Source: Clostridia bacterium
Lineage (GTDB): Bacteria; Bacillota; Clostridia; Oscillospirales; Acutalibacteraceae
DNA length: 64,000 bases
Assembly (NCBI GenBank): GCA_017474045.1
Contig: JAFUHX010000018.1
Span: forward strand, 30,110 to 94,109
Direction of reading: 5' to 3'
The notes beneath the pieces were generated by a model. It had not been told where the DNA came from. It made no database searches and saw only the letters and a list, made by a program, of their open reading frames with translations. This document shows, one piece after another, positions 17,251-60,134 of the stretch. Position 1 is the first letter of the stretch, and each line of letters opens with the position of its first letter. The translations under genes were made by a program, and so were the position numbers.

Positions 17251-17281
17251 TTTTATTTTTCCCCTTTATATTATTACTTTG

Positions 17282-17400: not shown

Positions 17401-17538
17401 ATGTCTAAGCAGAATAAGAATAAGAATCAGAACCAGAATCAGAATCTCAACAACGAAAACAAAAATCAGAAAAACGCAAAAAATCTTAACAAAGAAAACA
17501 AAAACAACAATCAAAACGAAAACCAGCAGCAGTATTAA
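17401..17538 (+). CDS. 45-residue Asn/Gln/Lys-rich low-complexity peptide
   Basis: The ATG at 17401 lies 9 nt after AAAGGAG, and a strong terminator follows the stop, so this is a complete monocistronic small gene. The 45 residues comprise 19 Asn with Lys, Gln and Glu. The only hydrophobic residues are two Leu, an Ala and the terminal Tyr. There is no signal peptide and no predicted fold. Overall hydrophilic richness recalls small acid-soluble spore proteins (especially gamma type), but it lacks their sequence motifs. A longer frame opens at 17353 but has no ribosome binding site. Function unknown; it is likely disordered and cytoplasmic. Confidence 0.7.
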   Translation: MSKQNKNKNQNQNQNLNNENKNQKNAKNLNKENKNNNQNENQQQY

Positions 17539-17558
17539 TCATCGGTTAACTGTTTTGA

Positions 17559-17595
17559 GCAATGCCTGATTTCAAGGCATTGCTTTTTGTTTTTC
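17559..17595 (+). terminator. Terminator after the Asn-rich peptide gene
   Basis: GCAATGCC/GGCATTGC stem, 9-base loop, then TTTTTGTTTTT. It starts 20 bp after the stop codon. Confidence 0.88.
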
Positions 17596-17609
17596 GTCTA
17601 TGATATAAT
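17580..17609 (+). promoter_or_regulatory. Promoter of the AlkD-like gene
   Basis: TTGCTT (17580-17585), 18-bp spacer, TATAAT (17604-17609), 29 bp before the ATG. The -35 box overlaps the foot of the preceding terminator. Confidence 0.5.
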
Positions 17610-17637
17610 TAAAAAAACTTATCAGGGAGAAAATCTT

Positions 17638-18318
17638 ATGACAGAAAAAATTATTTCCCAGCTATTTAAACTTCAGGAAGAAAAATATAAAAGTTTTACC
17701 TCCGCTTTAATTCCAACTGTTGACAAAAATAAAATTATCGGTGTCAGAATTCCGCTTCTTCGTTCACTCGCCAAAAAATTCATCAGAAGCGAAGATGTTT
17801 CTTTCTTTTTGTCAGACCTTCCCCATCGCTATCACGAAGAAAACCTCTTTCATGCTCTTCTTATCAACGAAAACAAAAATTTTGAAAGTTGCATTTCTCA
17901 GCTTAACAGCTTTTTGCCCCATGTTGACAACTGGGCTGTTTGCGACAGCATCAGACCAAAGGTTTTTTCAAAAAACAAAAAAGCTCTTCTTTCAGAAATT
18001 GAAAAATGGCTCAGATCCGATAGCACCTATACAGTTCGTTTTGCCGCTGAAATGCTTATGCTCCACTTTCTTGACGAAGATTTTGAAGAAAACTATCTTG
18101 AAGCTGTTTCAAAAATTCAAAGCGAAGAATATTACATAAACATGATGATAGCCTGGTATTTTGCAACCGCCTTGGCAAAGCAATGGAAATTCGCCATTGT
18201 TTATCTTGAAGAAAAAAGACTTGACCCTTCGGTTCACAACAAAACGATTCAAAAAGCAACAGAAAGCTACCGGATAACAGATGAACAAAAACAATATCTG
18301 AAAACCCTGAGGATATAA
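17638..18318 (+). CDS. AlkD-like DNA alkylation repair protein (HEAT-repeat fold)
   Basis: 226 residues. AlkD proteins are HEAT-repeat DNA glycosylases that remove N3- or N7-alkylated purines. Matching features are VRIPLLRSLAKKFI near the N-terminus, HEENLFHALLINENKNFE and VDNWAVCDSIRP (the conserved Trp-Asp region that lines the DNA groove). IEKWLRSDSTYTVRFAAEMLM and YYINMMIAWYFATALAKQW follow. Start ATG at 17638 has AGGGAG 8 nt upstream; the frame is open from 17587 but only with a TTG lacking a site. Single gene facing a bidirectional terminator. The family is clear; whether it is a glycosylase or one of the non-enzymatic paralogues is not. Confidence 0.87.
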   Translation: MTEKIISQLFKLQEEKYKSFTSALIPTVDKNKIIGVRIPLLRSLAKKFIRSEDVSFFLSDLPHRYHEENLFHALLINENKNFESCISQLNSFLPHVDNWAVCDSIRPKVFSKNKKALLSEIEKWLRSDSTYTVRFAAEMLMLHFLDEDFEENYLEAVSKIQSEEYYINMMIAWYFATALAKQWKFAIVYLEEKRLDPSVHNKTIQKATESYRITDEQKQYLKTLRI

Positions 18319-18334
18319 TAAACAATCTAAAAAA

Positions 18335-18359
18335 AGAGGATGTAAAAATTACATCCTCT
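18335..18359. terminator. Bidirectional terminator between the AlkD-like and GH43 genes
   Basis: AGAGGATGTAA/TTACATCCTCT perfect 11-bp arms with A-run on one side and T-run on the other, between convergent stops at 18318 and 18365. Confidence 0.88.
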
Positions 18360-18364
18360 GATTT

Positions 18365-44910: not shown

Positions 44911-46779
44911 TTATAAAATAGAAAAAATATTTTCAAAGGAGTCTATGACATAATCTGCTCCTCTGTTTTTAAGGTCATACATTGAATATTTTCCTGAGGC
45001 AACACCAACAGAAACTATTCCGCAAGCTTTAGCCGAATCCACATCAACAACATCATCGCCAACATACCAGACTTCATCATTTGTCGCTGCAGTTTTTGAT
45101 AAAGCCTTTCTTATAGGCTCCGGACTTGGTTTAATCAAATCGGGATCAAACGGTATCGGTCGTCCAAAAACATTACTGAAAAGTGACTCCATATTTTCTC
45201 TTTTAAGAGCACTTTTTATAACTTTAGTTGAATTGCTCGACACAATCATCAAGTCAATTTTATTTTCTTTCAATTTCAGAAGTGTTTCTGAAATATTTTC
45301 AAAAAACTCTGTTTTTTTCATAACCTCCATTTCGAATTCCGTAACTTTTTTCTCTGCATCATTATTTATTTCAAAAGCCTCTTCATAATCAAATTTTCTG
45401 TTAACTAATCGATGCAGCTTATACCATGCATGGTATCCGTCGATTGTGTAGTATTCAGGATCTATTTCAACGAAATCATCATAATAATCACAGATTTTCT
45501 TCGCCAACTGCAACAGAAGTGAGGTGTCTTTATATAAATAAATCAAAGTTCTGTCAAAATCAATTATAATAACCTTTGGTGTTTTTTTTCGTTTCTCTGT
45601 GGAATCATTGAGCCTGTATTCTTTCATTTCTGTTGAAGAAAGACTGTTTTTCCATTCATATTCAAACTGAGAATTCAACCTTTCCAACAAAACTTCACAA
45701 TGCACATTTTCTTCCGGATTAATCATTATCATGTCGCTGGGAACACTTTTAAAAACTGATCCTCCCGCTGATGGTAATTCTTCCCATTTTTGAAAATTGA
45801 TAAAGCCAATAACTGCCCTTCCCGCAGAGTTACAAAACAAACAGCCTTTTAAAATCGGCTGGTGGGAATAATACCTGATTGTTCTTTTCAGAGAATACGG
45901 CCATTCTTCATTGCACATTCTTTTTATTGATTCCGCTTTCTTCCATGGACGAATTCCTTCAGGAAGCTTTGAATTATGTTCAGCTTCATCTCTTTCTTCA
46001 ATAACATAATTTCTTTGAAGAATACGCATTTCAACGTTTAAAGAATACCGCGAGATATAAGTCAACAAATCAGATGACAACACTTCGCCTGTGTATCCGA
46101 AAAATTTTATTATTGGATATTTAGCCTGCTTCATTAAGCTTTGAAAATAGTTTCTGTATTCAGGTTCTTCAACAATGGAAAGTCCTTTACTGTTCTGAGG
46201 AATTTCAACTTCATTTTCACTGAACAATATGGAATTTTCCTCAAGTCCGTTCATAAGCCTGTTTGAAAATACTGACAAATCTGTCTGTCTTCTCAAATAA
46301 ACATTTCTGTTAAGGCTCTTATAAAAAGATTCAGAATCCTCTCTCCATATTCCAACTTCTTTAAATATGGTTTTAAACACATTCAAATCATCTTGCGTGA
46401 GACTATATCCATCGATGTTAACGGTTAAAACAGTTATGTTTCTTATTTGCCGTTGTTTCTCAATTTCTATAATTTCCTTTGCAGTAACACAAGGGCTGTT
46501 TTTTCCTTTTGCAACAATATTGGCTTTGTTTTCTTCATTCAAAAAATAATCCGTAAACCCTTTTGCCAAAAAGAGAACAAAAATTTCAGCCTGACCTATT
46601 AAAACAGGAACATCAAGCTCATAGTTTCCCACATTTTCTTCGTCGGAATACCATATTCTTCCATAATTCTTATCTTTAACAGATTTAAGGCTGTTTTTTA
46701 AATGCTTGGCTGTTTCGGAGCCTTCTCCTCGATAGCAAAAAAATATCCGGCACTTACTGTCTTTATGCTCATCAATCAT
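44911..46779 (-). CDS. TIR-like / unknown / HAD-phosphatase fusion protein
   Basis: 622 residues. Residues 11-175 look like a TIR domain: RIFFCYRGEGSETAKHL, then RIWYSDEENVG, AEIFVLFLAKGFTDYF and TAKEIIEIEKQRQ, in which Glu102 could be the catalytic NADase Glu. Residues 205-385 are a domain I cannot name (IIKFFGYTGEVLSSDLL, LKRTIRYYSHQPIL, RAVIGFINF). Residues 402-622 are a full HAD hydrolase: VIIIDFDRTLIYL (Asp407, Asp409), MIVSSNSTKV, KPSPEPIRKA and VGDDVVDVDSAKA. It has its own promoter and AAGGAG site and lies 17 bp before the CooC-like gene. TIR domains usually signal or deplete NAD in phage defence. Role here is open. Confidence 0.75.
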   Translation of the reverse strand: MIDEHKDSKCRIFFCYRGEGSETAKHLKNSLKSVKDKNYGRIWYSDEENVGNYELDVPVLIGQAEIFVLFLAKGFTDYFLNEENKANIVAKGKNSPCVTAKEIIEIEKQRQIRNITVLTVNIDGYSLTQDDLNVFKTIFKEVGIWREDSESFYKSLNRNVYLRRQTDLSVFSNRLMNGLEENSILFSENEVEIPQNSKGLSIVEEPEYRNYFQSLMKQAKYPIIKFFGYTGEVLSSDLLTYISRYSLNVEMRILQRNYVIEERDEAEHNSKLPEGIRPWKKAESIKRMCNEEWPYSLKRTIRYYSHQPILKGCLFCNSAGRAVIGFINFQKWEELPSAGGSVFKSVPSDMIMINPEENVHCEVLLERLNSQFEYEWKNSLSSTEMKEYRLNDSTEKRKKTPKVIIIDFDRTLIYLYKDTSLLLQLAKKICDYYDDFVEIDPEYYTIDGYHAWYKLHRLVNRKFDYEEAFEINNDAEKKVTEFEMEVMKKTEFFENISETLLKLKENKIDLMIVSSNSTKVIKSALKRENMESLFSNVFGRPIPFDPDLIKPSPEPIRKALSKTAATNDEVWYVGDDVVDVDSAKACGIVSVGVASGKYSMYDLKNRGADYVIDSFENIFSIL

Positions 46780-46836: not shown

Positions 46837-46862
46837 TGAATAACCGGCGAAAAGATTAACAA

Positions 46863-46908
46863 AAAAACCTCCTTCGTGTTGTGTAAGATTAACACGAAGG
46901 AGGTTTTT
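46863..46908 (-). terminator. Strong terminator closing the tubulin/vWA operon
   Basis: AAAAACCTCCTTCGTGTT paired with its exact complement, an 18-bp stem with a 10-base loop; T-run on both strands. It isolates the operon at 47-59.8 kb from the TIR-HAD operon. Confidence 0.92.
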
Positions 46909-46960
46909 GCTCGCTATTAAGTCCGTAGTAAAATTTTTAAAGTTTTATAACTGAAATATT

Positions 46961-47986
46961 TTATGCGGCGTAGGGCTTTGAGGGTGTTGCAGGATAATCG
47001 GCCTCTTCCCACGATCTGCTCTTTTTCATGTATTCATCGGTAACCAGCAGATAGTCAGTTATATTTCTTGATCCGTCATTCCAGGTAATGTCCATCTGAT
47101 ACCAATTATTTTCTAACTGAACCAGATTCCATGCGTGGCCTTCACCATTTGTGCAAACACCGGTCTGAATGTCGCACTTTATGGAAAACTTATTGAGAAT
47201 AAGCTTAGCAGCGCAAGTATAGCCCTCACAAACAGCCAAACCGTTTTTCAAGGCTCCGTAGGCTGTGTGTGTAATAGGTTCATAAGGCTTCGAATCGGGA
47301 TATACAACCGTTTCGCAAAGATATTTGTTAACAGCGCAAATAATTTCATAATCGCTTTTTCCGAAAGCGTTTATTTTATTAACCGCCTCATCAACAAGCT
47401 TAACCGTTTCTTCTTTTATTTTAACAAGCTCTTTTTTCTTGAAGAAATAGTTGATTTTAACAATATAATCTACTCCGCGATTTCCCCATTGCCAGCTTTC
47501 AACACCGCAGGCAGCGATAGGATCTTTTCGCTGAATATTTCTGTAAATTTTTTCAATAACATCTAAAAGATTTACGCTGTATCCGTTAACAAAAACAAAC
47601 TCAAACTGCGTTTTCGTGTCGTTATAAACCTCATAGAAGGCTTTTTCAAGGTCTTCATAGCTGCCGATTTTATAAACCTTTGAATCAGAGGCTCCCTCTT
47701 CTTCTGAAGAGTCCTCTATCTGATCTTTAACATCGTCATATTCATCATCGGTCATTGACTGACCCGTGGGTTGATAATATGAGCCGGAAAAATCATCTAT
47801 GAGACTGTCAAGAAGAGTTCCGGAGTTAATTAAGGAATAATCATCTTCTGTTTTTCCCACGGCAAAGGCATCGGCGCCAATATCGAGAATATTATCCGGC
47901 GAACCGGCAGAACATCCAGAAAGCATTGTTATTGCTGCCAGCAACAATGAAATCAAGCAAAAGATAAACCTGTTTTTTCTAATCAT
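46961..47986 (-). CDS. Transglutaminase-like lipoprotein
   Basis: 341 residues. Lipoprotein signal MIRKNRFIFCLISLLLAAIT then LSGC (lipidated Cys about 25). The C-terminal half (about 195-341) is a transglutaminase/papain-like fold with AVCEGYTCAAKLIL (catalytic Cys), GEGHAWNLV (His) and DITWNDG (Asp). The N-terminal half is acidic and unassigned. Bacterial secreted members of this family act as proteases or cross-linkers. Its ATG overlaps the stop of the 1316-residue gene (ATGA), so it is made with that protein and likely acts outside the cell on or with the same complex. Confidence 0.85.
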   Translation of the reverse strand: MIRKNRFIFCLISLLLAAITMLSGCSAGSPDNILDIGADAFAVGKTEDDYSLINSGTLLDSLIDDFSGSYYQPTGQSMTDDEYDDVKDQIEDSSEEEGASDSKVYKIGSYEDLEKAFYEVYNDTKTQFEFVFVNGYSVNLLDVIEKIYRNIQRKDPIAACGVESWQWGNRGVDYIVKINYFFKKKELVKIKEETVKLVDEAVNKINAFGKSDYEIICAVNKYLCETVVYPDSKPYEPITHTAYGALKNGLAVCEGYTCAAKLILNKFSIKCDIQTGVCTNGEGHAWNLVQLENNWYQMDITWNDGSRNITDYLLVTDEYMKKSRSWEEADYPATPSKPYAA

Positions 47987-50900
47987 TTAACACTTACCTC
48001 ACCGGAAATTATTTCTGAAATCAGGCGTTCCATGGTTGAAAACGGATTCATGTGGCTGCCTTCGCCCTGAGCTTTTTCAAAATAGTCATATATCAGTCTG
48101 TAACCGATACCGTATTCGTCAACAGCAGCCAACATACTTTCATGCATTCGCTCGGCAAACTTTGAATTGTTAAACTCTCTCATGGTTTTTATTTCAGTAT
48201 AAACTGCGTGACCTTCCAGAAGAATTTTAACAATTTCATCCTTTGTTTTTCCCGGAACAAGCTTTTTAAGATTTTTGGATCTTTTAAGCTTCTTAATGGG
48301 AAGATAATCATATTGCCAGGCGTGTGTCAGCTCATGAGCAGCCGTGCTTTGCATGGCAATTCTCGGGCCGCCTGCCTCAAGCCAAAGAATTCTTCCTGCA
48401 GGAGCATAGAAACCTAAAACCCTTGAATTGAAATCATTTCCGACCACACTTCTGATTTCATCGGCATCTTTAAAGCCGATTTTAATTCTTCGTTTGAACT
48501 TGATCTTATATGCTTCTTCAAAATGTCTGATGAGATCTTCACAAAGATGTTCAACCTGATCCTGCTCACTGATCTGATGCTCCGCGCATTGAGTACACAT
48601 TTTTCTTCCGTCGCCGAGCTTCTTAACAACCATTGTGTTTCTTCCGCAGAAAGAACAAGTGTTGGGAAGCTCAACTTCAACAGCCTCAACTGATTCGGCT
48701 TTTTCGCAGGAAAACTCACCGGTTATTTTAACAAGAACATCATGAAGCTCTTTCAGGTCAAAAATTTCAGGAATTTTATCTGAGCCAAAATGAAGATATG
48801 TTCCCTTTATTTTTTCCTGATCGCCGTTTTCTTCTCCGACAGCTTTTGAATCTGATGATTCGTCTTTTTTCAAATACCATTGAAGATATTCGCGAATCAT
48901 CATAAGAATCGTTTCTCTGTTGTTATAAAGAAGATTAACCATTCCGTATTCAACGCAGCTGAACTCAACAATATAGAAAGACTCATAGTTTTCTTTGGCT
49001 GAAGGTGTTTTTTGAGTAAAGGGAATCATGCTTCTGACGATGTTTTCAAAAACGCCTTCTGAGCCGTTAGCGATAACATTTTCAATATCAATGCTGTTGT
49101 TTCCTGTGGAAACTGCATATAAATTCTGCCATGTATCAGGGAAAAGAGTTTTGAATATTTCATTGAGAATATAGCAAAGTGCCAAAACCGCTTTGTCGGA
49201 ATTTTTTCCGAATGAGCTTTTTGAGAAGTTTACTTCAAGAATATTAGCTTCTTTTTCTTCTTCAATGCAGTTATCTCCAAGATCGTTTATAACAAACAAA
49301 CCATCGTTTAAAACATTGTTTCCGTTGTTACTTCTCCAATATGCAGGAACTTTTCTTTTAACCGTAGCTGTTGCAATATTAAAATCAATATATGTAACAT
49401 CAACACAAGGGTCAATAACCTTATAATCGCTGAATGAAAATTCTGAAATAGGATAGTAACTATAAACATAGTGATCATTGCATTGAGACGCATAGATTAT
49501 TCCGTCGGAAACAGAGTTAATGCGATATAAGTTTGCTCCGAAAACTATGTGTTGATCTCTGAGATAATAGTTGTTTAAGTTGCCCTTGAGAACGGGAATT
49601 TCATAATGCTGATTATTATTAATGCATAAAACTGCTTTTTTGTTTTTGGAAACTATCCGTTTATAAATGCTTTCTTCTTTCAACGTTACAAAGGCTTCTC
49701 TTATGAGAACATCCTCTTCTTTTGAATAGGTCTTTCTGGGCTTGAAATCAAAAGCATCAAAAATTCCGTAGTTTTCTTCTTTTTTCAAAACAGAAGACAA
49801 ACAAGCTTCAAGAACCTCTTCAGGTGTTTTAAAGCTCCAGCCGTACTCTCGGCTTTTCTTCATAATCTCGGTTTCAGTCATGCCTTTATCGTGAAGATCA
49901 ACCAGCATCACTGAAATATGGCTGGATTTCATGGCAAGACCTACCGGAACCAAAGCATCAAACTCGTTGTTTTTAAACAAAAAGCTTTCTTTTCTGATGT
50001 TATCAGCAAAATACTCTCTTAAAATATAGCTTGGTGAAACAACATGCATAATTGTTCCTTTTTTTCCGCCGTATTTCATCCAGCGCCATATAGCATTATA
50101 GAAATTATAGTCTGTGTCGTAAATGACAACAATTTTTATGTCGTCTTTTAAATAAATATCTGAATCGCCTTTTCTTATTACGCTGTTGATATCGGCATTT
50201 TTCTGCAGATATTTATTGACCTCCTGGGCATTCATTATCATTGCCTGATAATATGTTTCATAAGGTCTTGAATCTGAAGGCACAAGAACCACGCCAAAAA
50301 AGTCATATTTTGCGGCAACAAGAGCCAACGGCATGGCTACACCCATATAGGGCGTTCTTTCTTTGCCGATTCCCAGACGATATTGCATTTTGTGGTAGCT
50401 TTCTTCTTTCCACAGCATCAGGCTGGTTTCTTTGCAGCAATAGTCATTTTTAAACAGCTTCAGCTCTTTTTTTGTTGCGTTTTCCATTGCTGTTCTTACG
50501 CTGTCGTTATCAACATCGGTAACAAGAATATATTGAAGATTTTTTTCATTGGAATTTATTCCGTTGAAAAGTCTTTCAATACGAATCTCGTCCTGAGAGA
50601 ACAAAAACATTCCCGATGTTACAATTATACAGCTGAGGGTTTTTACAAATCCCCTTCGTTTTTCAAGAATCCGATATGAAACAAGGTCATCAAAGGAACA
50701 GATCAGTAAATTCATCGGACGGTCTTTATCTGCATCTTCAATAGTGCAAATATTCCAGATTGAGCCTATGCTGTTCAAGCGTTTCATGCTTTCATCAAAA
50801 GCGCCTTTAATTTTTTCAGCTTCGACGCTATCTTTACACAGCAACAAAACGGTTTTTCCCTGAGACATTATATAATTGAGGTATGCAGTAATATAAATTA

Positions 50901-51933
50901 ATATTTCGCCCTCAATTCTGTCACGGACGTTGATTGAATTACCGTTGAGAAGAGTGGCAACAGCGTCCTGATAGTTAATGGAATGTTCTGCCTTACATTC
51001 ATTAAGCTGATTGATTATTATTTTCAAAACATCGCTTTGAACACATTCGTCAATCTGTCTGTTTGAAAGGTCATTATAAAGATTATCTTCATTGTTAAAA
51101 ATGCCATCCACTTTTTCACAGGCGATAAGAACATCTGACTTTTCAAAAGTCTTTTCATAAATTTTAACAACCTGCTCTGTGTCAACTTCAAGCTCTCCGT
51201 TAATTCCGGTTGACGAATAGCTTCCTGCGCCATATTTAATTTCGCTGTCAAAGAAAAACTGAAGCTGCTGAACCAGAATAAAGCCCGCCATGGGAACCCA
51301 ATAAACCGCTTTTGAAAGCTGTCTGAGATTAAGATTCCACTGTTCTGAGCCCCAGCAAACAGAAACACTCAAAACGGCTATAACAGCAAAAAACAAAATT
51401 GCAAAAGTCCATTTTATTCCGTTTGACCAAAGACCTAATGAAAAGCCCTCGGGAGCTAAAGCTATTTTTTCTTCGTCTTCATCATATTTATAGAACTTTG
51501 AAACGATTTTATGAGGGATATAAAGGAGTATTTTTAAACCGAAATATTCCTCATCCTGAAGAAAATATGCCTGCTTATCTTTGAAAATTCCTTTGATAAG
51601 TCCCATGAGGAAGTTAACCAAAAGCAAAAAAGCCAAGTTGAGCCCAATTATTACTAAAAGCATATAAATTATTTCATAAGCTCTGTTTGGCAAAATATAG
51701 TTTAAAATATTAGCAACAAAAGGAATTTTGATTATTCTGTCAATAAGATTAAGTATTCCTGATGTTGTGTAATAATTAAACACAATCAGCTCAGCAGCAA
51801 TTACAGCCACAATATATCTGAAATGAAGATATCTTTGACTTTTTTCAAAAGCAAGCTTGCAAATCAGGCCGTCTAATATGAAAAATACAACACCGACAGC
51901 TATAAGAAATACTGCAAATAAAAGTAGTTTCAT
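47983..51933 (-). CDS. Membrane protein with degenerate helicase-like region, zinc finger and DA1-like metallopeptidase
   Basis: 1316 residues. Start ATG at 51933, 5 nt after GGAGG. About four to five membrane helices lie in the first 235 residues. Residues about 250-720 contain blocks in helicase-like order (GKTVLLLCKDSVEAEKIKGA, NLLICSFDDLVSYRI, LSCIIVTSGMFLFSQDEIRI, LQYILVTDVDNDSV) but no Walker A, so it is probably not an active helicase. Residues 1093-1116 form a CxxC-CxxC zinc finger (CSFCGRN, CTQCAEH). Residues 1125-1316 are a peptidase domain with HELTHAW (His1200, Glu1201, His1204) and EGHAVYTE (Glu1240). Zinc finger followed by HExxHAW and EG is the order in DA1-type peptidases. Coupled to the transglutaminase-like lipoprotein. 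Confidence 0.75.
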   Translation of the reverse strand: MKLLLFAVFLIAVGVVFFILDGLICKLAFEKSQRYLHFRYIVAVIAAELIVFNYYTTSGILNLIDRIIKIPFVANILNYILPNRAYEIIYMLLVIIGLNLAFLLLVNFLMGLIKGIFKDKQAYFLQDEEYFGLKILLYIPHKIVSKFYKYDEDEEKIALAPEGFSLGLWSNGIKWTFAILFFAVIAVLSVSVCWGSEQWNLNLRQLSKAVYWVPMAGFILVQQLQFFFDSEIKYGAGSYSSTGINGELEVDTEQVVKIYEKTFEKSDVLIACEKVDGIFNNEDNLYNDLSNRQIDECVQSDVLKIIINQLNECKAEHSINYQDAVATLLNGNSINVRDRIEGEILIYITAYLNYIMSQGKTVLLLCKDSVEAEKIKGAFDESMKRLNSIGSIWNICTIEDADKDRPMNLLICSFDDLVSYRILEKRRGFVKTLSCIIVTSGMFLFSQDEIRIERLFNGINSNEKNLQYILVTDVDNDSVRTAMENATKKELKLFKNDYCCKETSLMLWKEESYHKMQYRLGIGKERTPYMGVAMPLALVAAKYDFFGVVLVPSDSRPYETYYQAMIMNAQEVNKYLQKNADINSVIRKGDSDIYLKDDIKIVVIYDTDYNFYNAIWRWMKYGGKKGTIMHVVSPSYILREYFADNIRKESFLFKNNEFDALVPVGLAMKSSHISVMLVDLHDKGMTETEIMKKSREYGWSFKTPEEVLEACLSSVLKKEENYGIFDAFDFKPRKTYSKEEDVLIREAFVTLKEESIYKRIVSKNKKAVLCINNNQHYEIPVLKGNLNNYYLRDQHIVFGANLYRINSVSDGIIYASQCNDHYVYSYYPISEFSFSDYKVIDPCVDVTYIDFNIATATVKRKVPAYWRSNNGNNVLNDGLFVINDLGDNCIEEEKEANILEVNFSKSSFGKNSDKAVLALCYILNEIFKTLFPDTWQNLYAVSTGNNSIDIENVIANGSEGVFENIVRSMIPFTQKTPSAKENYESFYIVEFSCVEYGMVNLLYNNRETILMMIREYLQWYLKKDESSDSKAVGEENGDQEKIKGTYLHFGSDKIPEIFDLKELHDVLVKITGEFSCEKAESVEAVEVELPNTCSFCGRNTMVVKKLGDGRKMCTQCAEHQISEQDQVEHLCEDLIRHFEEAYKIKFKRRIKIGFKDADEIRSVVGNDFNSRVLGFYAPAGRILWLEAGGPRIAMQSTAAHELTHAWQYDYLPIKKLKRSKNLKKLVPGKTKDEIVKILLEGHAVYTEIKTMREFNNSKFAERMHESMLAAVDEYGIGYRLIYDYFEKAQGEGSHMNPFSTMERLISEIISGEVSVK

Positions 51934-51970
51934 TTTTTCCTCCAAACAGGATCTCTGTTAAAATAAAGAT

Positions 51971-53998
51971 TTAGCCTTGCGGCCAATATATATTGTAATC
52001 TGAAGGCTCTTTTGCATTGTTTTCGTCTAAAGAAAACAATGTTCCGATATTGATTTTTTTGACTCCGCCGGAAACACAGTCACAACAATATTTGATCAAT
52101 CCGTCAAAAGAGTCAACCTTTGATAACAAATCTTTAACAGCAATTTTATGCCACAAACGCTCTTGGGAAAGCATTGCGCTTTTTTCGTCTGCCTGATCAT
52201 ATAAATTATAATAAGTAGTGTAGCAATCTAAAAGATTGAGCGCGTTTATGTATGCGTTAAAATTCTTGGCTTTAAGCTTATATGAGATCATATATTTTTC
52301 TGTTCCTTCAGATATTTCCTCAACACATCTTTTGATTTTTTTCAAAAAGACCTGCCTCGGAATTATCCAGAACAATCCCGCCATGAAAAACGTTACCAAA
52401 ATATATGAAGCATACATAAGCAAGGACTTTCCGTCGTTAAAAACAAAAGGCTGCAAAGCTGTGTAGTGAACGGTTAAGCATATAACAACAAACAAAACCA
52501 AAGACATAAACCTTCCGAACTTAACAAAGGAAAGACATTTGATATATTTGCAAATTTCAGAATTCTTTTCTTCAATAATTTTTGCAAGATTAAGCTGATC
52601 CTGAAATCTCAAGGAAGGATTCATCTGAGGTCTTTTAAGTTCATCAAGATAAAAATCTTTTTTTCTTTTTAACTCAAGCTTTTCTTCCTTTTCTTTTTTA
52701 CCTGCAAAGAAAATCTCTTTTTCCAGGCTCATCATTTCTTTTTTTCGCTGTTCAACCCTTTGAGAATATTGCTGACTGAGTCTTCCTGCAAATTCTTCCA
52801 GAGAAAACTCAAGGTTTTTGATTAAGTTTTTAATATCGCCATAGGCCTTTTTCCAGCCTTCAGCTGCTTTTTCAACAGACAAAGAATTTTCAAGAAAATC
52901 ATTGAGAACCTTTTTAAGTTCATCCTTTTCTTCTTTCCTCTCTTCGCCTTCCTGCTCGTTGCCAACATTAAAAAACGCAAATTTTTCTTCTTCGTCTTTT
53001 ATTATTTCATCGCTTTCCTTTGGCGGAGAAGGCATTTCTGAGCTTGAGGGAACAGGAGCATCGGTTGTTTCAAGAGTCAGCGCAAGATTATTAAGCTTTT
53101 CTCTGAATTCAAAAAGCATGGTTGCATATTTGCGCTCAATTTCTTTTTCAGAAACAACACCTTTCCAGTTCTTAACACAACGCTGAGAAAGAGAAAGCTT
53201 GGCTCCTGAACCGCCATCATATTCAAAGCTGCTGTTTATATATTCAACAATGCGAAGCAAAGCCTCTGTGTTTCCGCGAGGATCATCCTGAAGATCTCTT
53301 TGAACAAATATTTCAAAAACCTGATAGTTTGAAAGAAGCTGTCCTAAAAAATTTGAAAATGCGGCAATAATATTCAGGTCACAAGACGCGTTATCCTGAA
53401 CATGTTCACGAATTTTATTTTGTTCAGCAATAAAACTGCGGATTAAATATTGAGTTGTTTCCTTCATCTGCGATTGCTTTTCGTTGAAAGCTTCTTCAAT
53501 TGCAGCAAGACAAGTCTTGCTGCAATTGATTCCCATGCTGCTAAAAAACAATTCAATATCTTTTTTCAGTCTCTCGCTGGAAAGATAGTCGTCAACCGCT
53601 TCCTCCTGGTGTGGCATATCTGTTTCATAAAGCATTATTAAGTTGAGCGCGCGGTCAGTTCTTCCGCTGACATCCATGCATATATTTTCATTTCTGAGCT
53701 CATAGCTGATCTGAACCAAGCGATAAAGAAGAGAATTCTCCCATGTTTCCTCTTGTCTCCATGCCTTTCTCATAGCAAAAACGAACTGATACTCTTTAAC
53801 ATGATAAGGAAATTTGTTAAGATACATCCTTATGTCTGAAACAGCATAGTTCAGGCTGTTTTCGCCGCAAGAAGCAGACGACTGAACATGATTGATTTTT
53901 ATCTTATCTTTATTATGGAGCTTGTAAAAAAACATATCATAGATATACATATTAAAGCACTGGTCAACATTAACCAGAAAGCGAAAACAGTTGTCCAT
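51971..53998 (-). CDS. Coiled-coil membrane protein of the tubulin/vWA operon, function unknown
   Basis: 675 residues, no recognised family. The first 280 residues are helical and soluble-looking. Acidic, Ser/Pro-rich linker (about 310-350). A long charged coiled coil (about 360-490, e.g. RVEQRKKEMMSLEKEIFFAG) follows. Two membrane helices (about 500-555) come next, then a helical C-terminal domain ending in YNIYWPQG. No signal peptide, so both large parts may be cytoplasmic around a hairpin anchor. It lies 20 bp after the tubulin-like gene and 37 bp before the DA1-like gene. It could link the tubulin-like polymer to the membrane, which is inference from position and layout. Confidence 0.7.
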   Translation of the reverse strand: MDNCFRFLVNVDQCFNMYIYDMFFYKLHNKDKIKINHVQSSASCGENSLNYAVSDIRMYLNKFPYHVKEYQFVFAMRKAWRQEETWENSLLYRLVQISYELRNENICMDVSGRTDRALNLIMLYETDMPHQEEAVDDYLSSERLKKDIELFFSSMGINCSKTCLAAIEEAFNEKQSQMKETTQYLIRSFIAEQNKIREHVQDNASCDLNIIAAFSNFLGQLLSNYQVFEIFVQRDLQDDPRGNTEALLRIVEYINSSFEYDGGSGAKLSLSQRCVKNWKGVVSEKEIERKYATMLFEFREKLNNLALTLETTDAPVPSSSEMPSPPKESDEIIKDEEEKFAFFNVGNEQEGEERKEEKDELKKVLNDFLENSLSVEKAAEGWKKAYGDIKNLIKNLEFSLEEFAGRLSQQYSQRVEQRKKEMMSLEKEIFFAGKKEKEEKLELKRKKDFYLDELKRPQMNPSLRFQDQLNLAKIIEEKNSEICKYIKCLSFVKFGRFMSLVLFVVICLTVHYTALQPFVFNDGKSLLMYASYILVTFFMAGLFWIIPRQVFLKKIKRCVEEISEGTEKYMISYKLKAKNFNAYINALNLLDCYTTYYNLYDQADEKSAMLSQERLWHKIAVKDLLSKVDSFDGLIKYCCDCVSGGVKKINIGTLFSLDENNAKEPSDYNIYWPQG

Positions 53999-54018
53999 GA
54001 ACCTTTAGTCCCCTTTGA

Positions 54019-57000
54019 TTAGTGATATCTTTGTTCAATAAGAGTTTCGTGAATTCTTCTGAGTTTTTCTTCACCTGCATCAAGGTCCTTGCCTTCTTTA
54101 ACCTTTTTGCCAACGCTGCTGTTTTCATAAATAGCATTAAGAATATCAACAGTTGCTTTGTTAACAAGGTTTGCGTGTCTGTCAAAGAGAATTGAAGTAA
54201 ATTCCCAGATTGCATAAATCAGACCTTCAAAGAGATGAGTATATTTTTCTTCTTTCATATAAACGCGCATTGAAAGAAGAATATCGTAAATATTCTTATC
54301 TCCCTCATCGACTCTTGACTGAGGCTGAATGAGGTCAACAACAAAATCCATTGACATAACTCTTGCAAACAATTCTTCGCCTGAAAGATAACCCTTTTCT
54401 TTTCTGAAATAAGACTGGGCATTTTCAAGAATTCGTTTCTTCATTCCGCGGTTGTAGTCGAGAGAATTGAAGAAATCAATATATCTTCCGCCGATTCGGT
54501 TTCCGCAAATCTTAACCGGCTTTGCCATTCCGCCGGTAATTTCATGCCATACCATAACTTCTTCACTTTCGCGAAGAGCAAAAGCATCATCATCTTTAAT
54601 GCAGAAAGCAAGGTCAAGTCCCATTGCATAAATAAAGGCCTTAAGCTTATTTTCAAGACTGAGCTTTCTTTCCTTCTCGGTAAGCTCGGGAATAAAGCCT
54701 TCTTCATGCCAGTTTCTGTTAAGATGGGGGTTAATTACGGTTTTAACTGCGTCTTCATCAAACATATCAGCTATAACACCATCAATATTTGAAATTCTTT
54801 CGCGATAATCTTCGGCATTTTGTGAATCAGGTCTGTATTTAATAAGATCATCAACTTCCAACAGATATTCTGTTTTCAAACAGATTATTTCGTTGGGTGA
54901 GAATTCCTCATTCATAAGAATCGTGGGTTTTTGGCTATCAACAGATTCGCCCACAACCGGGAAATATCTCTCAAGTGTCAGACCCACATCTGCCTTGCCG
55001 GCAGACTGCTCTGCACAGTCGGGATGAAGTGCAAGGAAAACGAGCTGTGCGCGGTTTTTAACTGCAGCTTCATCAATTGCAAGAAGGGGTGCAGCCATTA
55101 CCATAGCTTCATTAACCTTTTGGCTTGCATAAGCAGCGGCTTCTTTTGCAAATTCTTCAGGCATTGCCGTTGTTTCAGCAGTAATGCCTTTGACAAGCTC
55201 GAATTCTTTAATAAGAGCCTGCTTCGCAGTCAACTCAACAATACCGTCGCCATTTTTTGAAACATTGGTGTAAAGAGGCTCAAGAATTGCTGTGTTAAAA
55301 ATAGCCGAGAGAACCTTTTTGTTTTCTTCCTTCTTCATTCGTCTTTGCTGTTCGCTGGTTTCAAAGCCTGAAGAAGCATTGAGATCGCCAACCACAACAC
55401 CAAAAATCTTTTTGAAAATTTCGGTTTTAACTTCATCGGGAATTTTTTGCTCGTTTCTGTTGCTATATTCCATTGCCATTTTTCTGAAGGCAGTACTGGA
55501 GCAATAAACGCCGATCTGACCTAAGGGCGAAGTATAGTTTTCAAGGTTCTGAAGTCTCTTTTCGTTGGCTTCAATAGCTGAACTGAGAGTAGAAAAGAAG
55601 AGCTTATAGTTTTCAGCAAGAGCTTTAAATCTCTTGAGAAGAGTGGTGCAGATATTAATATATAAGCTTTCTCTCAGCCAATCTTCAATGTTATTAGACT
55701 GATTGTTAGCGGCATTGCTGAGAACACCGGCAAACTTTTTAATTTTTCCGGCATCAAGAGAAAGAAGCTTTGTGAAGGTTCCGCTTTTTTCTTTGAGCTT
55801 CTGAACAACCTGCATTGCAGAATCTCTTCCTGCTGTTGACTTATCAAAATCTTCATTGCGATATGTTGAAAGGTCAATACCTGAAAGCTCCTCCTGAGCA
55901 GTCTTGATTCGTTGGTTAAGAAGTCTGATAACATCATAACACAGGAAACGGGCTGTTACCGGATGAACCTTTGTTATCCATTTGAAAATGCAGTTTTCTG
56001 ACTCTGTTCGGCTGCCCATGCTTTCCCAGCTGACAGGGAAAACCTCATTGGCAACATAAGCTGACTTCGTTTTAACAAGATTCTTTGCAAGCTTTTCATA
56101 TTCAATCAAAGCATTTTCAATTCTTGTTACCTCAGTAGAAGCGTTTTCAAATTTTTCCATTTTCTTGAGATCAAGATTGCAGCTCTTTTTCTTCTCTTCG
56201 ACCTCGTCTGATTCGATTATTGCATTAATCTGTTCTTCAATTTTTTTGAAAAATCTCTTACCGATAGTCACTTCTTCGTGTTCTTCGGTTTTGAAGAAAG
56301 ATTCAGAATAAAGCTTGCCTAAGGTTCCGTTGTCGCCGCTGACTTCAATTCTGAAAATATCGCAGTAATTTTCAGCGTCAGAAGGAACAACAACAGTTCC
56401 GTCTGACTTCTGTCTTGATTGAGCGTCTGAAACAATAAGCTCACACTTTTTATCAATAAGAGTCCATTCTTTTTGAACAAGATCTTTTGCTGTTGAAAGA
56501 ACAACATATTCTTTAGCTGCTTCTTCAGGGAAAACAAGACTGCAAAGACCTGCGCTTGCATATCTGTTCATTCCGTTTCTCTTGATCTGGTCAAGAGTGA
56601 AATTATCTTCAACAGAAAGAGACTGGTTAACAACAGGAGTGAACAAAAGGGTGAAAAGTATTCTCGAGGCAAGGTTTTCAACAGTAGTAACATCTACATT
56701 GCCTAAGCCGCCGTTGGCGTTATTGCTTTCAATAAGATAAACATAGTTATAAGGAATCTCAGCGCTTGCAGTTTCAAGAACTCTTGCGTCAATTGCATCT
56801 TGCTCTGTTCTGATTGTCCAGTTTACTCTGTTTACAGTTCCGGTGGTATTTCCATAATAATCAAGCTTAAGCTTTTCTTTCAGCTCGCTATCCATCTGGG
56901 TCAAATAGAAAGCATTGAGCTCCTTAAGACAGGCATAGGCATTAACACCGACTGCTTTTCTGTTAGTATCTGAGCTCTGATGAGGTCTGGTGATGTCAGG

Positions 57001-57549
57001 GCCGAAAAACAATCCTCTTATAATGATGTTTTCAAGACCTGCAGTATTCTTCAGAAGATTTCTGATATAGAAGGGAATCTGAAGGAACATTCCGGCACCG
57101 GTTCCGCCGGTTATTGAGCCGCAAACAACAACAGCAAGAGTTTTGTTGTTTCCGTCGGGTCTGTAAGCTCTGATTCTGTTAATTTCGCTTTCAATGGGAG
57201 CAAAAAGATTTCTTTCTTCAGCCGCCAGAGCTGCGAGACGAGATAAGGTTCTGATCTGACCGGCACCTGTGCTCATACCTCTTTCGATCAGGAAGGGATG
57301 AACGGGGAACCATTCACGGAAATGAGGATAATTGCTGAGATAATCATGAACTTTTCTGTCGTCGCTGATTTTGATTGTCTGAAGACCGCGCGCCTTCATA
57401 ATGTTGATATCATTTGAATTGGTATCAACACCAATTGCTCCGACATAAGCTTTGTCTTCTTCGCTGAGAAGATCGTTTACACCGGCTGCAATAGCGCTTC
57501 CGATACCTCCGAGACCGATTAATAATGTGGGAATTCGATTCATAGCCAT
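54019..57549 (-). CDS. Large tubulin/FtsZ-like GTPase (Tubulin_2 type)
   Basis: 1176 residues. Start ATG at 57549 is 9 nt after AAAGGA. The N-terminal third is a tubulin-type GTPase: TLLIGLGGIGSAIAAG (11-26, nucleotide loop), AIGVDTNSND (38-47), GAGQIRTLSRLAALA, and VVVCGSITGGTGAGMFLQIP (141-160), the tubulin signature in the SGGTGAG variant. The remaining 800 residues are helical with coiled-coil stretches and unassigned. It resembles the large FtsZ/tubulin-like proteins found next to vWA proteins in bacterial operons and proposed to remodel membranes. It is second in a five-gene operon with 40 bp to the vWA gene. Polymerisation and cargo are unknown. Confidence 0.85.
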   Translation of the reverse strand: MAMNRIPTLLIGLGGIGSAIAAGVNDLLSEEDKAYVGAIGVDTNSNDINIMKARGLQTIKISDDRKVHDYLSNYPHFREWFPVHPFLIERGMSTGAGQIRTLSRLAALAAEERNLFAPIESEINRIRAYRPDGNNKTLAVVVCGSITGGTGAGMFLQIPFYIRNLLKNTAGLENIIIRGLFFGPDITRPHQSSDTNRKAVGVNAYACLKELNAFYLTQMDSELKEKLKLDYYGNTTGTVNRVNWTIRTEQDAIDARVLETASAEIPYNYVYLIESNNANGGLGNVDVTTVENLASRILFTLLFTPVVNQSLSVEDNFTLDQIKRNGMNRYASAGLCSLVFPEEAAKEYVVLSTAKDLVQKEWTLIDKKCELIVSDAQSRQKSDGTVVVPSDAENYCDIFRIEVSGDNGTLGKLYSESFFKTEEHEEVTIGKRFFKKIEEQINAIIESDEVEEKKKSCNLDLKKMEKFENASTEVTRIENALIEYEKLAKNLVKTKSAYVANEVFPVSWESMGSRTESENCIFKWITKVHPVTARFLCYDVIRLLNQRIKTAQEELSGIDLSTYRNEDFDKSTAGRDSAMQVVQKLKEKSGTFTKLLSLDAGKIKKFAGVLSNAANNQSNNIEDWLRESLYINICTTLLKRFKALAENYKLFFSTLSSAIEANEKRLQNLENYTSPLGQIGVYCSSTAFRKMAMEYSNRNEQKIPDEVKTEIFKKIFGVVVGDLNASSGFETSEQQRRMKKEENKKVLSAIFNTAILEPLYTNVSKNGDGIVELTAKQALIKEFELVKGITAETTAMPEEFAKEAAAYASQKVNEAMVMAAPLLAIDEAAVKNRAQLVFLALHPDCAEQSAGKADVGLTLERYFPVVGESVDSQKPTILMNEEFSPNEIICLKTEYLLEVDDLIKYRPDSQNAEDYRERISNIDGVIADMFDEDAVKTVINPHLNRNWHEEGFIPELTEKERKLSLENKLKAFIYAMGLDLAFCIKDDDAFALRESEEVMVWHEITGGMAKPVKICGNRIGGRYIDFFNSLDYNRGMKKRILENAQSYFRKEKGYLSGEELFARVMSMDFVVDLIQPQSRVDEGDKNIYDILLSMRVYMKEEKYTHLFEGLIYAIWEFTSILFDRHANLVNKATVDILNAIYENSSVGKKVKEGKDLDAGEEKLRRIHETLIEQRYH

Positions 57550-57589
57550 AACTGAAAATCCTTTCTTTTTCAATCTGATTATTTTTTAT

Positions 57590-59779
57590 TTATTCAACCC
57601 AGATACAAGTTATGTATGGGTCGCCTTTTGATGCCCTTAAATAAAGCTTCTGTCCCTCGCCAAGTGAAATATCCTGGGCTGTTTTTGAACCGTCGGGCTG
57701 TTCTGTTTTGAAAAGTCCTCGGGCAATTGACGCCAGACGATTGGCAGGATTTGCCGCGGAAGTTCCGTAGCTGTAGCAATTTTTCGCAATAGATCTTTCA
57801 GAAACAAAAATTGTTTTTCCGGGACCTGCAACAATTTCGTAGCCATAGAATTTCATTTTGCTTTTTGAAAGACGGAAAAGCCCTTTTGTAATATTAAGCG
57901 TTTTGCAGTCAAAAAGTCTTTGAGGAACTCCGTGGCCTTCGCTGTTTATTTTGTAAAGCTCATAGTTTATTGCTTCTCCGTGAAACTTTGGCTTAGTGAT
58001 GATTCTTAAAACATATAAGATAGCAAGAATTGAAAGAATCAACCACAGCAAGTCTAATATATCGCTGTTTTTGGCAACAATTTCAAAGAAGCCCTGAGCG
58101 TTTATACTGTTATCTGAAGAAAGCGCAACATCAACGGTATATTTTCCTGCACGAAGAAGAAACGACGTAAAAGCAAACTTCTTTTTAGGAATAATTTCAA
58201 ATTTTCCGTCATCGGCTAACTCAAGAACACATTCAGGCTGCAAGGTACCCATTCGCTTTAAAAAGCCTGAAACCATGCTGTTATCGCAGGAAACACCGTT
58301 TAAATCAAGGGTAACTCCCAAAGCGCTGAGTTGATTTTTAGTCAGTCTGACACCGTCGTTCGCAACATAAAAACCAAGATTCTGACCTTGTTCGCTGCCT
58401 TTATTAAGATTTTTTCTGTAATATTTTAAAGGATCGGGCTGAACGGTTTCGATTGAAAAATTATAAACGATTTTTTCAAGATCAAAATCCTCTTCAAAAA
58501 CAATCGGAGCATAACCGGGAATAAGCATTGATGCTCTAATAATGTTTTCGCCCTCTTTAATTTCGCTGACGGCAAGCTTTGTGCTGTCTGTGGAAGCTTG
58601 TTCCTTCTGATTGACTATGTATTCAATTTTCCAGGATAAGCCTTCAGGAAGGTCACCTGAGGAAAGAGCTGTTTTTGTTCCGGGAACAACCGGTGTAACC
58701 GCAACCTCAACGCTGTCGCCGATGATTATTTTAGACAAATCTTCAATTTCAATTCCGTTGCTTGAAATCGAAACATTTATTCCTATAGCCGGCTCATATT
58801 GAATTAAAAGGTCGTCAACATCAACTTTTTTTGAAAACTTAAGTGTATAGGTTTCAGCAGGAACAACCTGAGCGCTGCCTGATGAATCCATTTTATTGAT
58901 TACGCTTGCGTTACCGAAAAGTCTTAGCTGACTTGATTTGGCAATATCCGTTGCATCGAGAAGAATGTTTCTGTTGATATCAAGCTGTGCTTCTGTTGTG
59001 TACGCTTTTTCAACGACTGCATCGCTGCTCTGAGACAAAACAGAAATGCTGTAAAGCGGCAAAGGTGAAGAAAACTGAATAGTTTTGCTGTCAATCTGTT
59101 TTATACCGGTTGCTGAGAATCGACCTGAAATAAGGTTTGCCACTTCAAACATTGCCGAAAAAATTTCCTGATCGGTTTTGGAACGGTAGGAATATAAGCC
59201 TCCCGCCTTATCTTCTGAAATTTTTTCTGCTTTGCTTCCCATTCCGAGATAAACCACATTAAGAGCACTGGAGTTTGACATGGTTTTTCCTTTATAGGAA
59301 TTCAGGGTTTTCTGAAGGCTCTTTGAAAGACCGGAGATTTTTCCGTCTGTCATAACAACAAGCCAGAACTGAGTGCTTGCGTCTTTTTCAGAAATGCTCT
59401 GAAGCTTCTTTGCCGCAGTTTTAATGGTTTTTCCCGGAGTAGTTCCGCTTTCAGACCACTCACGAATATTGCTGACAACTTTTCCCACATCGCTGAGATC
59501 TGTTTCAACAACGGTTTCAGGTGAACTCATATAGGTAATATAAAGTTCATCTTTTTCGTTTAGCAACGCTGCCAGAGACTGCATTGCATAGTTGGCATAG
59601 ACCCAGCTGTTGCCAAACATACTTCCGGAGTCATCGTAAACAACCGAAATAATTTTTTTAGCCGCTTTTACCTCGTCGCCGACCTTGGCTTCACCTGAAA
59701 AGGCAAAAAAAGGAACAAAGATTAAGCAGACCAAAACCAGCGAAAAAAATTTTTTAACGATTTTATTTTTTAAAAGCAT
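57590..59779 (-). CDS. Secreted/membrane vWA-domain protein, first gene of the tubulin operon
   Basis: 729 residues. Signal peptide (about 8-28, ending AFSGEA). vWA domain (about 42-230) with an intact MIDAS, VVYDDSGSM (Asp49, Ser51, Ser53), and LVVMTDGK. Several beta-sandwich segments follow, then a membrane helix (about 595-618, LLWLILSILAILYVLRII). A cytoplasmic beta-rich C-terminus (about 620-729) ends PYITCIWVE and could be FHA-like, though it has no clear FHA motif. The vWA domain would face outside and bind metal and a protein partner. RBS GGAAGGGA, ATG at 59779. Confidence 0.87.
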   Translation of the reverse strand: MLLKNKIVKKFFSLVLVCLIFVPFFAFSGEAKVGDEVKAAKKIISVVYDDSGSMFGNSWVYANYAMQSLAALLNEKDELYITYMSSPETVVETDLSDVGKVVSNIREWSESGTTPGKTIKTAAKKLQSISEKDASTQFWLVVMTDGKISGLSKSLQKTLNSYKGKTMSNSSALNVVYLGMGSKAEKISEDKAGGLYSYRSKTDQEIFSAMFEVANLISGRFSATGIKQIDSKTIQFSSPLPLYSISVLSQSSDAVVEKAYTTEAQLDINRNILLDATDIAKSSQLRLFGNASVINKMDSSGSAQVVPAETYTLKFSKKVDVDDLLIQYEPAIGINVSISSNGIEIEDLSKIIIGDSVEVAVTPVVPGTKTALSSGDLPEGLSWKIEYIVNQKEQASTDSTKLAVSEIKEGENIIRASMLIPGYAPIVFEEDFDLEKIVYNFSIETVQPDPLKYYRKNLNKGSEQGQNLGFYVANDGVRLTKNQLSALGVTLDLNGVSCDNSMVSGFLKRMGTLQPECVLELADDGKFEIIPKKKFAFTSFLLRAGKYTVDVALSSDNSINAQGFFEIVAKNSDILDLLWLILSILAILYVLRIITKPKFHGEAINYELYKINSEGHGVPQRLFDCKTLNITKGLFRLSKSKMKFYGYEIVAGPGKTIFVSERSIAKNCYSYGTSAANPANRLASIARGLFKTEQPDGSKTAQDISLGEGQKLYLRASKGDPYITCIWVE

Positions 59780-59851: not shown

Positions 59852-60134
59852 CACAAAACTAAACAAATTCTACATTTTTATCATCTCTTTCTTCTGTTTT
59901 TTTGTAAAAAAACGAAAATGAATATTAAAAATCCGATTATAAGCCATTTTTAACAAATCTTAATTTCAGATGTTAATTTTTAGAGAATAAGCTTTGAAAA
60001 TTGCAACTTCTTTTTCTATGGTTAAATACTATATGACAAAAAGAGAACTGAAAAAAGGGGGATAATTGATATTTTTGAGTTTTCAAACAAAACTTCACCT
60101 AAATACAATCAAAAGCCCGGTTCATAAACTTAAC

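Follow-up and report, generated by a model that had tools for sequence, protein, structure and literature searches.

A conserved four-gene unit of a vWA protein, a tubulin-like GTPase and two membrane proteins in Clostridia: a possible envelope-spanning signalling system

We analysed a stretch of 64,000 nucleotides (hereafter the window) from a Clostridia bacterium of the Acutalibacteraceae (GCA_017474045.1, an assembly of 2.5 Mb in 105 contigs; contig JAFUHX010000018.1, G000:C20:30110-94109), and concentrated on an operon of five open reading frames (ORFs). In the ORF listing these span 46961-59779, all on the minus strand, and they encode a predicted surface vWA protein (VWA), a tubulin-like GTPase (TUB), a membrane protein with a charged helical region (CC), a membrane protein carrying a metallopeptidase motif (MP) and a transglutaminase-like lipoprotein (TGl) (Table 1). 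VWA, TUB, CC and MP travel together as a conserved system. The conserved unit is therefore one of four genes, and the transglutaminase is an optional fifth part.

The operon boundaries agree with an initial annotation made from the sequence alone. Assuming ATG starts, the genes are separated by 40, 20 and 37 bp, except for MP and TGl at the end, which overlap by 4 bp; the ORF listing gives TTG starts for TUB and MP, and the gap figures use the next ATG. The 18-bp-stem terminator proposed at the end of the operon was borne out by folding of positions 46850-46925, which gave -29.5 kcal/mol (z -7.2), a value reached by none of 200 shuffled sequences. Our consensus terminator scan admits loops of 3-8 nt only, and this hairpin, with its 10-nt loop, is hence not on its list. 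Promoter-like sites were found upstream of gene 1 and between the operon terminator and the next gene. Both are consensus matches only, and the scanned region holds 58 such sites against 42.3 (standard deviation 6.7) expected.

Table 1. Features of the operon in window coordinates. TM, transmembrane.
Feature	Position	Strand	Description
Gene 1, VWA	57590..59779	-	Signal peptide; MIDAS-bearing vWA domain facing outward and a further extracellular stretch; single TM helix; cytoplasmic tail
Gene 2, TUB	54019..57573	-	Tubulin_2/FtsZl1 GTPase with a tail of ~820 residues; ATG start probably at 57549
Tubulin_2 domain of TUB, residues 17-366	56476..57525	-	Profile match
Gene 3, CC	51971..53998	-	Charged helical region, two predicted TM helices, conserved C-terminal tail
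Gene 4, MP	47983..51945	-	N-terminal TM helices ahead of a degenerate core, then a C4 zinc finger and an HExTH metallopeptidase; probable ATG start at 51933
MP core, about residues 300-1040	48826..51048	-	Resembles SF2 helicases weakly; motifs I and II no longer canonical
MP zinc finger, C1097-x2-C1100 ... C1117-x2-C1120	48586..48657	-	Invariant in 28-row alignment
MP peptidase motif, H1204-E-L-T-H1208 ... E1244	48214..48336	-	Invariant in 28-row alignment
Gene 5, TGl	46961..47986	-	Lipoprotein; transglutaminase-like domain in which Cys-His-Asp motifs can be read
Intrinsic terminator	46863..46908	-	18-bp stem, 10-nt loop; T-run at the end of the 3' strand
Promoter-like site TTAAGA-16-TATAAT	59936..59963	-	Upstream of gene 1; consensus match only

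Conservation of the unit was assessed at 60 loci obtained in a contig scan with a six-row MP alignment. The loci are hence selected by MP, all come from Clostridia-type records, and some coincide with loci known by genome handles (for example, L077 is G214). VWA, TUB, CC and MP occur in this order on one strand at 53 of the 60, and the other seven are cut by a contig edge that falls within TUB or CC or immediately ahead of one of them. The genes are thus not mostly found apart, a possibility that the initial annotation had raised against its own proposal. Median gaps, measured at longest-ORF starts, are 29, 41 and -8 bp; CC and MP overlap at these starts in all 60 relatives, unlike in the window. 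Two records, Flavonifractor sp. An112 and Pseudoflavonifractor sp. An44, carry no label marking them as a metagenome-assembled genome or as uncultured. We take both to be cultured chicken isolates, and the function of the system should therefore be testable.

The same association was found genome by genome. Within the genus of the window, Tubulin_2 is present in 6 of 34 genomes and MP in five, all of them among those six. Across 300 genomes of the family, Tubulin_2 scored above its cut-off in 20, and MP was strong in 14 of these 20 versus none of the other 280 (Fisher 1e-19, genome relatedness ignored). A fifteenth MP match, in G150 (8.6e-5), is a fragment of 75 positions and the only occurrence of MP without Tubulin_2 to this profile, which was built from copies beside Tubulin_2 and could let distant free-standing copies escape. 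The idea that the operon is a chance neighbourhood of unrelated genes is already refuted by this survey, given that the gene order is complete wherever a contig edge does not cut it. TUB, CC and MP cluster congruently at the 39 complete loci, L096, L110 and L117 excepted, and the VWA clusters are uninformative; pairwise identities correlate weakly between TUB and MP (0.20) and at 0.71 between CC and MP.

Beyond the family, the MP profile matched 6 of 391 genomes in a survey of the class, one of them (G464) only weakly. A broadened core profile matched 3 of 398 genomes in a survey of the phylum, namely the window's own genome, a carrier from the same order and a 59-position fragment; G464 lies outside the genomes listed in that survey. 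To these profiles, which could overlook distant cores, the system seems confined to its lineage. The G464 cassette (L160/L180), from another family of the class, comprises VWA, a second vWA gene with a degenerate MIDAS, TUB, CC and an MP core, with an L,D-transpeptidase gene (YkuD, PF03734 9.6e-11) downstream.

VWA is read from its sequence as having an N-terminal signal, one TM helix near the C-terminal end and a tail of ~110-130 residues, which we place in the cytoplasm because basic residues follow the TM helix. The window protein alone has no Pfam vWA match; VWA or VWA_2 is matched in 10 of 33 family members (E <= 1, best 1.2e-6). MIDAS residues D49, S51, S53, T114 and D145 are invariant in a 33-row alignment, and DxSxS is found in 47 of the 49 long VWA proteins from the 60 loci, the remaining two being N-terminally cut at a contig edge. 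Median identity at the 39 complete loci is lowest for VWA (0.28), followed by CC (0.31), TUB (0.39) and MP (0.47); within VWA it is 0.37 for the vWA domain and 0.25 for the rest. At L056 (G270, 10770-18581), three tandem VWA genes of unequal lengths stand beside one TUB-CC-MP set, as if the sensor had been multiplied.

TUB belongs to the tubulin superfamily, as had been proposed from its GSITGGTGAG signature and a tail then put at about 800 residues. It matches Tubulin_2 with an E value of 3.8e-44 (151.8 bits; gathering cut-off 27), and the tail behind the domain, to which no domain could be assigned, measures ~820 residues and holds residues conserved in a 20-row alignment. In the same rows the glycine loops T1 (GLGGIGS; G20, G22, G23 and G25) and T4 (GGTGAG; G156, G157, G159 and G161) are invariant. 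GGTG[AS]G was found in all 53 long TUB proteins. For T1, the first pattern matched 46 of the 53, and the remaining seven have GxGGxGS by inspection.

Tubulin_2 genes were also seen in other settings. On plasmids, Tubulin_2-type matches occur on four records, none reaching 80% query coverage. A 9.8-kb unverified 'Bacteriophage sp.' record from human faeces (L213, MT836542.1) holds VWA- and TUB-like genes, and its phage label is doubtful. At L051 (G249), a Tubulin_2 gene broken by an in-frame TAG lies beside a VWA gene and TIR/LRR-type genes, with no CC or MP match on the 16-kb contig. At L045 (G021), from the window's genus, the neighbourhood of the Tubulin_2 and vWA genes includes a gene for a HerA/FtsK-like ATPase (DUF87 2.4e-13), and neither CC nor MP is matched within 34 kb.

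CC, for which a homologue is present at all 60 loci, has a charged helical region, two predicted TM helices and a conserved C-terminal tail. It contains no known domain to Pfam, which gave scattered TM- or coil-type matches only among 53 members. Searching PDB sequences with profiles of CC, MP and VWA brought up no match that we regard as meaningful, the best being mL105 against CC (0.0026) over a 50-residue stretch of the helical region. The possibility that CC is a GAP1 protein was rejected, as no Pfam GAP1 family appears among the families shown and the CC profile misses the DO-GTPase/GAP1 locus of G133 (see below). The topology suggested in the initial annotation (outward MIDAS, cytoplasmic GTPase, membrane coiled-coil protein, lipid-anchored transglutaminase) is consistent with the sequences. 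Of the families that it had named, the tubulin-like and transglutaminase-like ones have profile matches among the window proteins (Tubulin_2 and Transglut_core); the Pfam vWA and PF12315 DA1-like profiles miss the window proteins.

MP had been described as a DA1-like peptidase. The 1320-residue protein is for the most part a membrane protein whose core is degenerate and possibly helicase-like, a feature missed in that description. It has about five N-terminal TM helices (four at a strict threshold), a core of ~740 residues, a C4 zinc finger and an HExTH...E motif, and the core is placed inside the cell because, as read from the sequences, basic residues follow TM1, TM3 and TM5. The four cysteines and H1204, E1205, H1208 and E1244 are invariant in 28 rows (an alignment without G139 and G176), and HExTH occurs at 48 of the 60 loci, the other 12 stopping at a contig edge. 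The peptidase part resembles DUF6782, which 24 of 28 members match at E <= 1 (best 1.1e-4), the window's own match lying below the cut-off. What stands of the DA1-like assignment is the zinc finger/HExxH architecture: PF12315 has no match in the window MP at E 1 and is matched by 2 of 28 members (best E 0.15), and the LIM profile has no match in the window MP. Peptidase halves encoded alone (G018; G221, which is L099; L104; L118) show no signal peptide in their N-termini as read.

The MP core has, by eye, motifs in the order found in superfamily 2 (SF2) helicases. Most of 17 aligned members carry GKS or GKN/GRS without a full P-loop, and EPS or similar. In the main clade EPS replaces DExH, and the window protein has GNS and TSG at the motif I and II sites; in the core, neither a full P-loop (motif I) nor a DExH (motif II) is intact. 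In hhalign comparisons with 12 MZB-bearing proteins (PF09369), drawn from a search of 61 phylum genomes plus one further retrieval, the EPS block of MP pairs with the DExH block and the region that follows. We take these 12 to be MrfA/YprA-type SF2 helicases; a PF09369 search in close relatives gave two proteins of another MZB type, presumably DrmB-like. Pfam gave no DEAD/helicase match in 28 MP members except WH_Lhr in one (0.22). The similarity of the core to SF2 helicases is suggestive but short of proof, and the core is probably a scaffold because its catalytic motifs are not canonical.

The fifth gene is where the initial five-gene set has to be narrowed, since the transglutaminase is optional or fused to MP. 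TGl has the lipobox LSGC, read from its sequence, and matches Transglut_core (E 9e-8; 32.8 bits versus a cut-off of 23). Among the 60 loci, a transglutaminase domain is fused to MP at 15 and separate and adjacent at two, one of which (L118) has both forms; no match was found at 31 loci whose contig continues, and 13 more loci are cut. Separate transglutaminases beside MP have a lipobox-like N-terminus in the window and in G027 and an N-terminal TM helix in L099 and L118. With some copies fused to MP and others exported, the domain seems to be used on both sides of the membrane. These outside enzymes, anchored as lipoproteins or by a TM helix, would suit a system for surface adhesion or wall remodelling, in which the vWA domain would attach to the surface of a host or a bacterium, with the GTPase polymer as its anchor inside, and wall remodelling would fall to an exported transglutaminase or L,D-transpeptidase (YkuD). 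MIDAS is an adhesin-type motif, YkuD adjoins the distant G464 cassette, and a gut or faecal site is named in 23 of the 60 record titles. However, YkuD was found at that one locus only, and the transglutaminase is unmatched at 31 of the 60 loci, with the contig continuing, and joined to the peptidase at 15. We consider adhesion or wall remodelling improbable.

Flank clustering identified three recurring partner families. F1 is a TM protein in which TrkA_N is found in 5 of 11 members and RyR in 7 of 11 (best 1.3e-5); F2 is Castor/Pollux-like (1e-4, below cut-off); and a TIR+LRR group matches TIR_2 at 9.8e-20, its TIR part resembling ThsB and SAVED-TIR models. Among the 60 loci, F1 occurs in 13, F2 in 15 and TIR in 10, and at least one of the three was found at 27 of the 44 loci having at least 2 kb downstream. 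F1 and F2 also follow the system at the genome level. The close F1 family (E < 1e-100) was detected in 13 of 17 carriers versus none of 58 non-carriers (Fisher 1.9e-11, relatedness ignored); three of the 13 genomes (G001, G031 and G214) supplied profile rows, and excluding them leaves 10 of 14. F2 was strong in 6 of 14 MP carriers versus 3 of 286 other genomes (Fisher 2.4e-7, again ignoring relatedness). F1 lies on a contig other than that of the cassette in 8 of 13 carriers and F2 in 5 of 6, in assemblies that are fragmentary. The F1 pattern is repeated in g4 (cassette and F1 in G255 and G319, neither in G036), g18 (both in G179, neither in G050) and g27 (both in G265, neither in G059). F1 adjoins F2 in G255 and G265, and in G265 a TIR-LRR gene comes next.

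Other neighbours were noted around the operon and its relatives. An AAA-type protein family occurs near four cassette loci, downstream in L125 and L126 and upstream in L127 and G139, and its L125 member resembles SpoVK/CbbX/EccA. In the window, the minus-strand gene at 44911-46779 encodes a 622-residue protein with a TIR-like N-terminus (score 29.1 versus 18.8 for the best of 60 shuffles) and a HAD_2 C-terminus (6e-23), and has a promoter-like site of its own. This gene was rejected as an operon member, as the terminator and its own promoter-like site intervene and no homologue occurs in other cassette loci. Orthologues of the flanking phosphatase in G003 (66% identical) and G015 (64%) have different surroundings and reveal no clean empty site.

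What the four proteins do together can be approached from their predicted topology and from these partners. One proposal, made for FtsZl1 proteins, is a membrane-remodelling or vesicle machine; here, TUB polymers tethered by CC and MP would bend the membrane under the control of VWA. The vWA-FtsZl1 pairing and the membrane-rich context fit this 2010 proposal (PMC2875224), and TM helices are predicted in three of the four core proteins. Against it, no recognised division or vesicle family is among the 25 largest flank families shown, the system is patchy within a single genus (6 of 34 genomes), and such a machine would not lead one to expect the genome-wide link to channel-type genes. We regard remodelling as unlikely, ranking it nonetheless ahead of the other alternatives discussed here.

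We favour, at a probability of roughly 0.42, an envelope-spanning sensor-to-effector signalling system of the conflict or immune type, with output through the metallopeptidase. Three things speak for this reading: the partner genes, the patchy distribution and the rapid divergence of the outward protein, the last being a weak argument since surface proteins commonly diverge quickly. The trans-envelope cytoskeletal machine of the initial annotation survives as an envelope-spanning set, but the TrkA/RyR, Castor/Pollux-like and TIR-LRR genes point more to sensing and effector release than to a machine linking cytoskeleton and wall. In the proposed mechanism, VWA would bind a ligand or contact partner at the surface through its metal-dependent MIDAS, and its state would pass via the single TM helix to the cytoplasmic tail. 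On this cue, TUB may assemble or switch beneath the membrane, with CC tethering it to the membrane and to MP by means of its TM hairpin and helical region. The degenerate core of MP could scaffold the complex, and the cytosolic metallopeptidase might be kept inactive until assembly, after which cleavage of a target would release the output. The output could be an altered ion flow, by way of TrkA/RyR and Castor/Pollux-type proteins, the action of TIR-LRR effectors, or wall remodelling by an exported transglutaminase. The purpose would most likely be defence or conflict, upon contact with a phage or competitor, and less likely housekeeping. A more specific version, an inflammasome-like immune system, would run from an integrin-type MIDAS receptor at the cell surface through assembly of the tubulin-family GTPase beneath the membrane to a recruited pseudo-helicase scaffold that turns on its metallopeptidase, with ion-channel opening and TIR effectors at the end. 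We judge this version unlikely, placing it behind membrane remodelling and ahead of the adhesion or wall system. If sensor-to-channel signalling were true, it would represent a bacterial signalling polymer made from tubulin, not from STAND or death-fold proteins.

Several observations weigh against sensor-to-effector signalling. The direction of signalling and the roles of channels and TIR proteins as outputs are inferred, and polymerisation of TUB and inhibition of MP are purely conjectural. The local F1, F2 and TIR neighbours were counted without a background control. At E <= 1e-3, F1 is also found in 8 of 58 non-carriers (more distant or RyR-only) versus 15 of 17 carriers, and genus g15 is discordant, with F1 at only 1.1e-8 in carrier G176 and at 8e-31 in non-carrier G047. 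F2 occurs without MP in G069, G105 and G215 and is missing from 8 of 14 carriers. In the genome of the window itself, F2 is unmatched and F1 is represented by a distant relative only (G000:C35, 9.7e-44), and the effector link therefore rests on relatives. The five window proteins had no match beyond noise among known defence models. Proteolysis cannot be a universal output, because HExxH has been lost in two MP relatives (G139 and G176) and G464 has an MP core without zinc finger or peptidase, adjoining the L,D-transpeptidase gene. The relation of the MP core to helicases is weak: the hhalign score was 35.4 with a probability of 7%, the best of 120 column-shuffled decoys reaching 30.9 and six unrelated families scoring at most 23.2; a first comparison had given a probability of 17, and the decoy-controlled run gave 7. 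Finally, in the available part of a study of Synechocystis, a Tubulin_2 mutant was affected in phototaxis and photosystem function, not in defence (PMC9880817).

Comparison with known systems places the unit among several relatives. Plant DA1 peptidases combine a zinc finger with HExxH. MP has the same succession, with an EG motif downstream; it differs in having a membrane-anchored core in front and, in the window, no Pfam DA1-like match, and we know of no ubiquitin link for it. With MrfA/YprA-type SF2 helicases, the MP core shares weak profile similarity across the motif II-III region; unlike them, MP lacks canonical motifs I and II, is membrane-anchored and is fused to a peptidase. Synechocystis Sll0445, for which we found the only Tubulin_2 mutant in the literature consulted, likewise has a Tubulin_2 domain, but its gene cluster includes FtsA-domain and DivIC-domain proteins, and its mutants are impaired in phototaxis, according to the part of the source available (PMC9880817). 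A 2023 survey sets Tubulin_2 apart as divergent FtsZ-like proteins (PMC9871819, text available in part). The literature searched, in the parts available, yielded no mechanism for Tubulin_2/FtsZl1 proteins, whose description dates from 2010.

The vWA gene next to FtsZl1/Tubulin_2 was described in 2010 by Makarova and Koonin (PMC2875224), and tubulin and vWA conflict systems in 2020 by Kaur et al. (PMC7159879), where related systems are argued to be conflict systems. The kind of system is hence less new than the initial annotation, with its candidate for an undescribed system, suggested. Of the four-gene unit itself we found no description in the titles, abstract openings and passages covered in the open-access literature (an earlier sighting is possible). 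As in the 2010 operons, a long-tailed Tubulin_2 GTPase lies beside vWA in a membrane-rich operon of patchy spread; unlike in our unit, the partners there are P-loop GTPases, kinases, OmpA proteins and unnamed lineage-specific families, and the portion of the text covered describes no CC- or MP-type partner (PMC2875224).

The GAP1-N2 DO-GTPase/tubulin systems of Firmicutes and Actinobacteria share tubulin, membrane proteins with extracellular vWA and a conflict logic with the unit (PMC7159879, in the text available). They comprise a DO-GTPase, GAP1 and a fibronectin type III (FNIII) protein, the Firmicutes versions having two genes each for tubulin and vWA (PMC7159879), in contrast to the one tubulin, CC and MP of the four-gene unit, in which no DO-GTPase or GAP1 was found. 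An ordinary subtype of those systems, with GTPase and GAP1 lost or replaced by MP, would explain the common tubulin family and outward vWA. Genome G133, from the same bacterial family as the window, indeed has a locus (L061/L062) with DO-GTPase2, GAP1-M, vWA and two Tubulin_2 genes. Nevertheless, eight window proteins scanned gave no match to DO-GTPase (the control, G133, matches PF19993 at 1.3e-9) or to GAP1 (control GAP1-M 2.2e-4, a match slightly under its own cut-off), and the 40 kb around G133 contain neither a CC nor an MP homologue. A general scan of the eight proteins also gave no fn3, no search having been aimed at FNIII repeats. We find such a subtype doubtful, the least probable of the alternatives other than chance. 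The G133 locus, from the same family, means that both kinds coexist and can be told apart. The best reading is that the four-gene unit is related to, and distinct from, the known vWA-FtsZl1 and DO-GTPase/tubulin systems. It is real, conserved and testable, and unstudied as far as we searched. What it adds to them is a compact, conserved set around Tubulin_2 for which a topology can be predicted and a candidate enzyme named. One of its membrane proteins is unusual in combining a degenerate core with a metallopeptidase, and two partner families accompany the set from genome to genome, often on other contigs.

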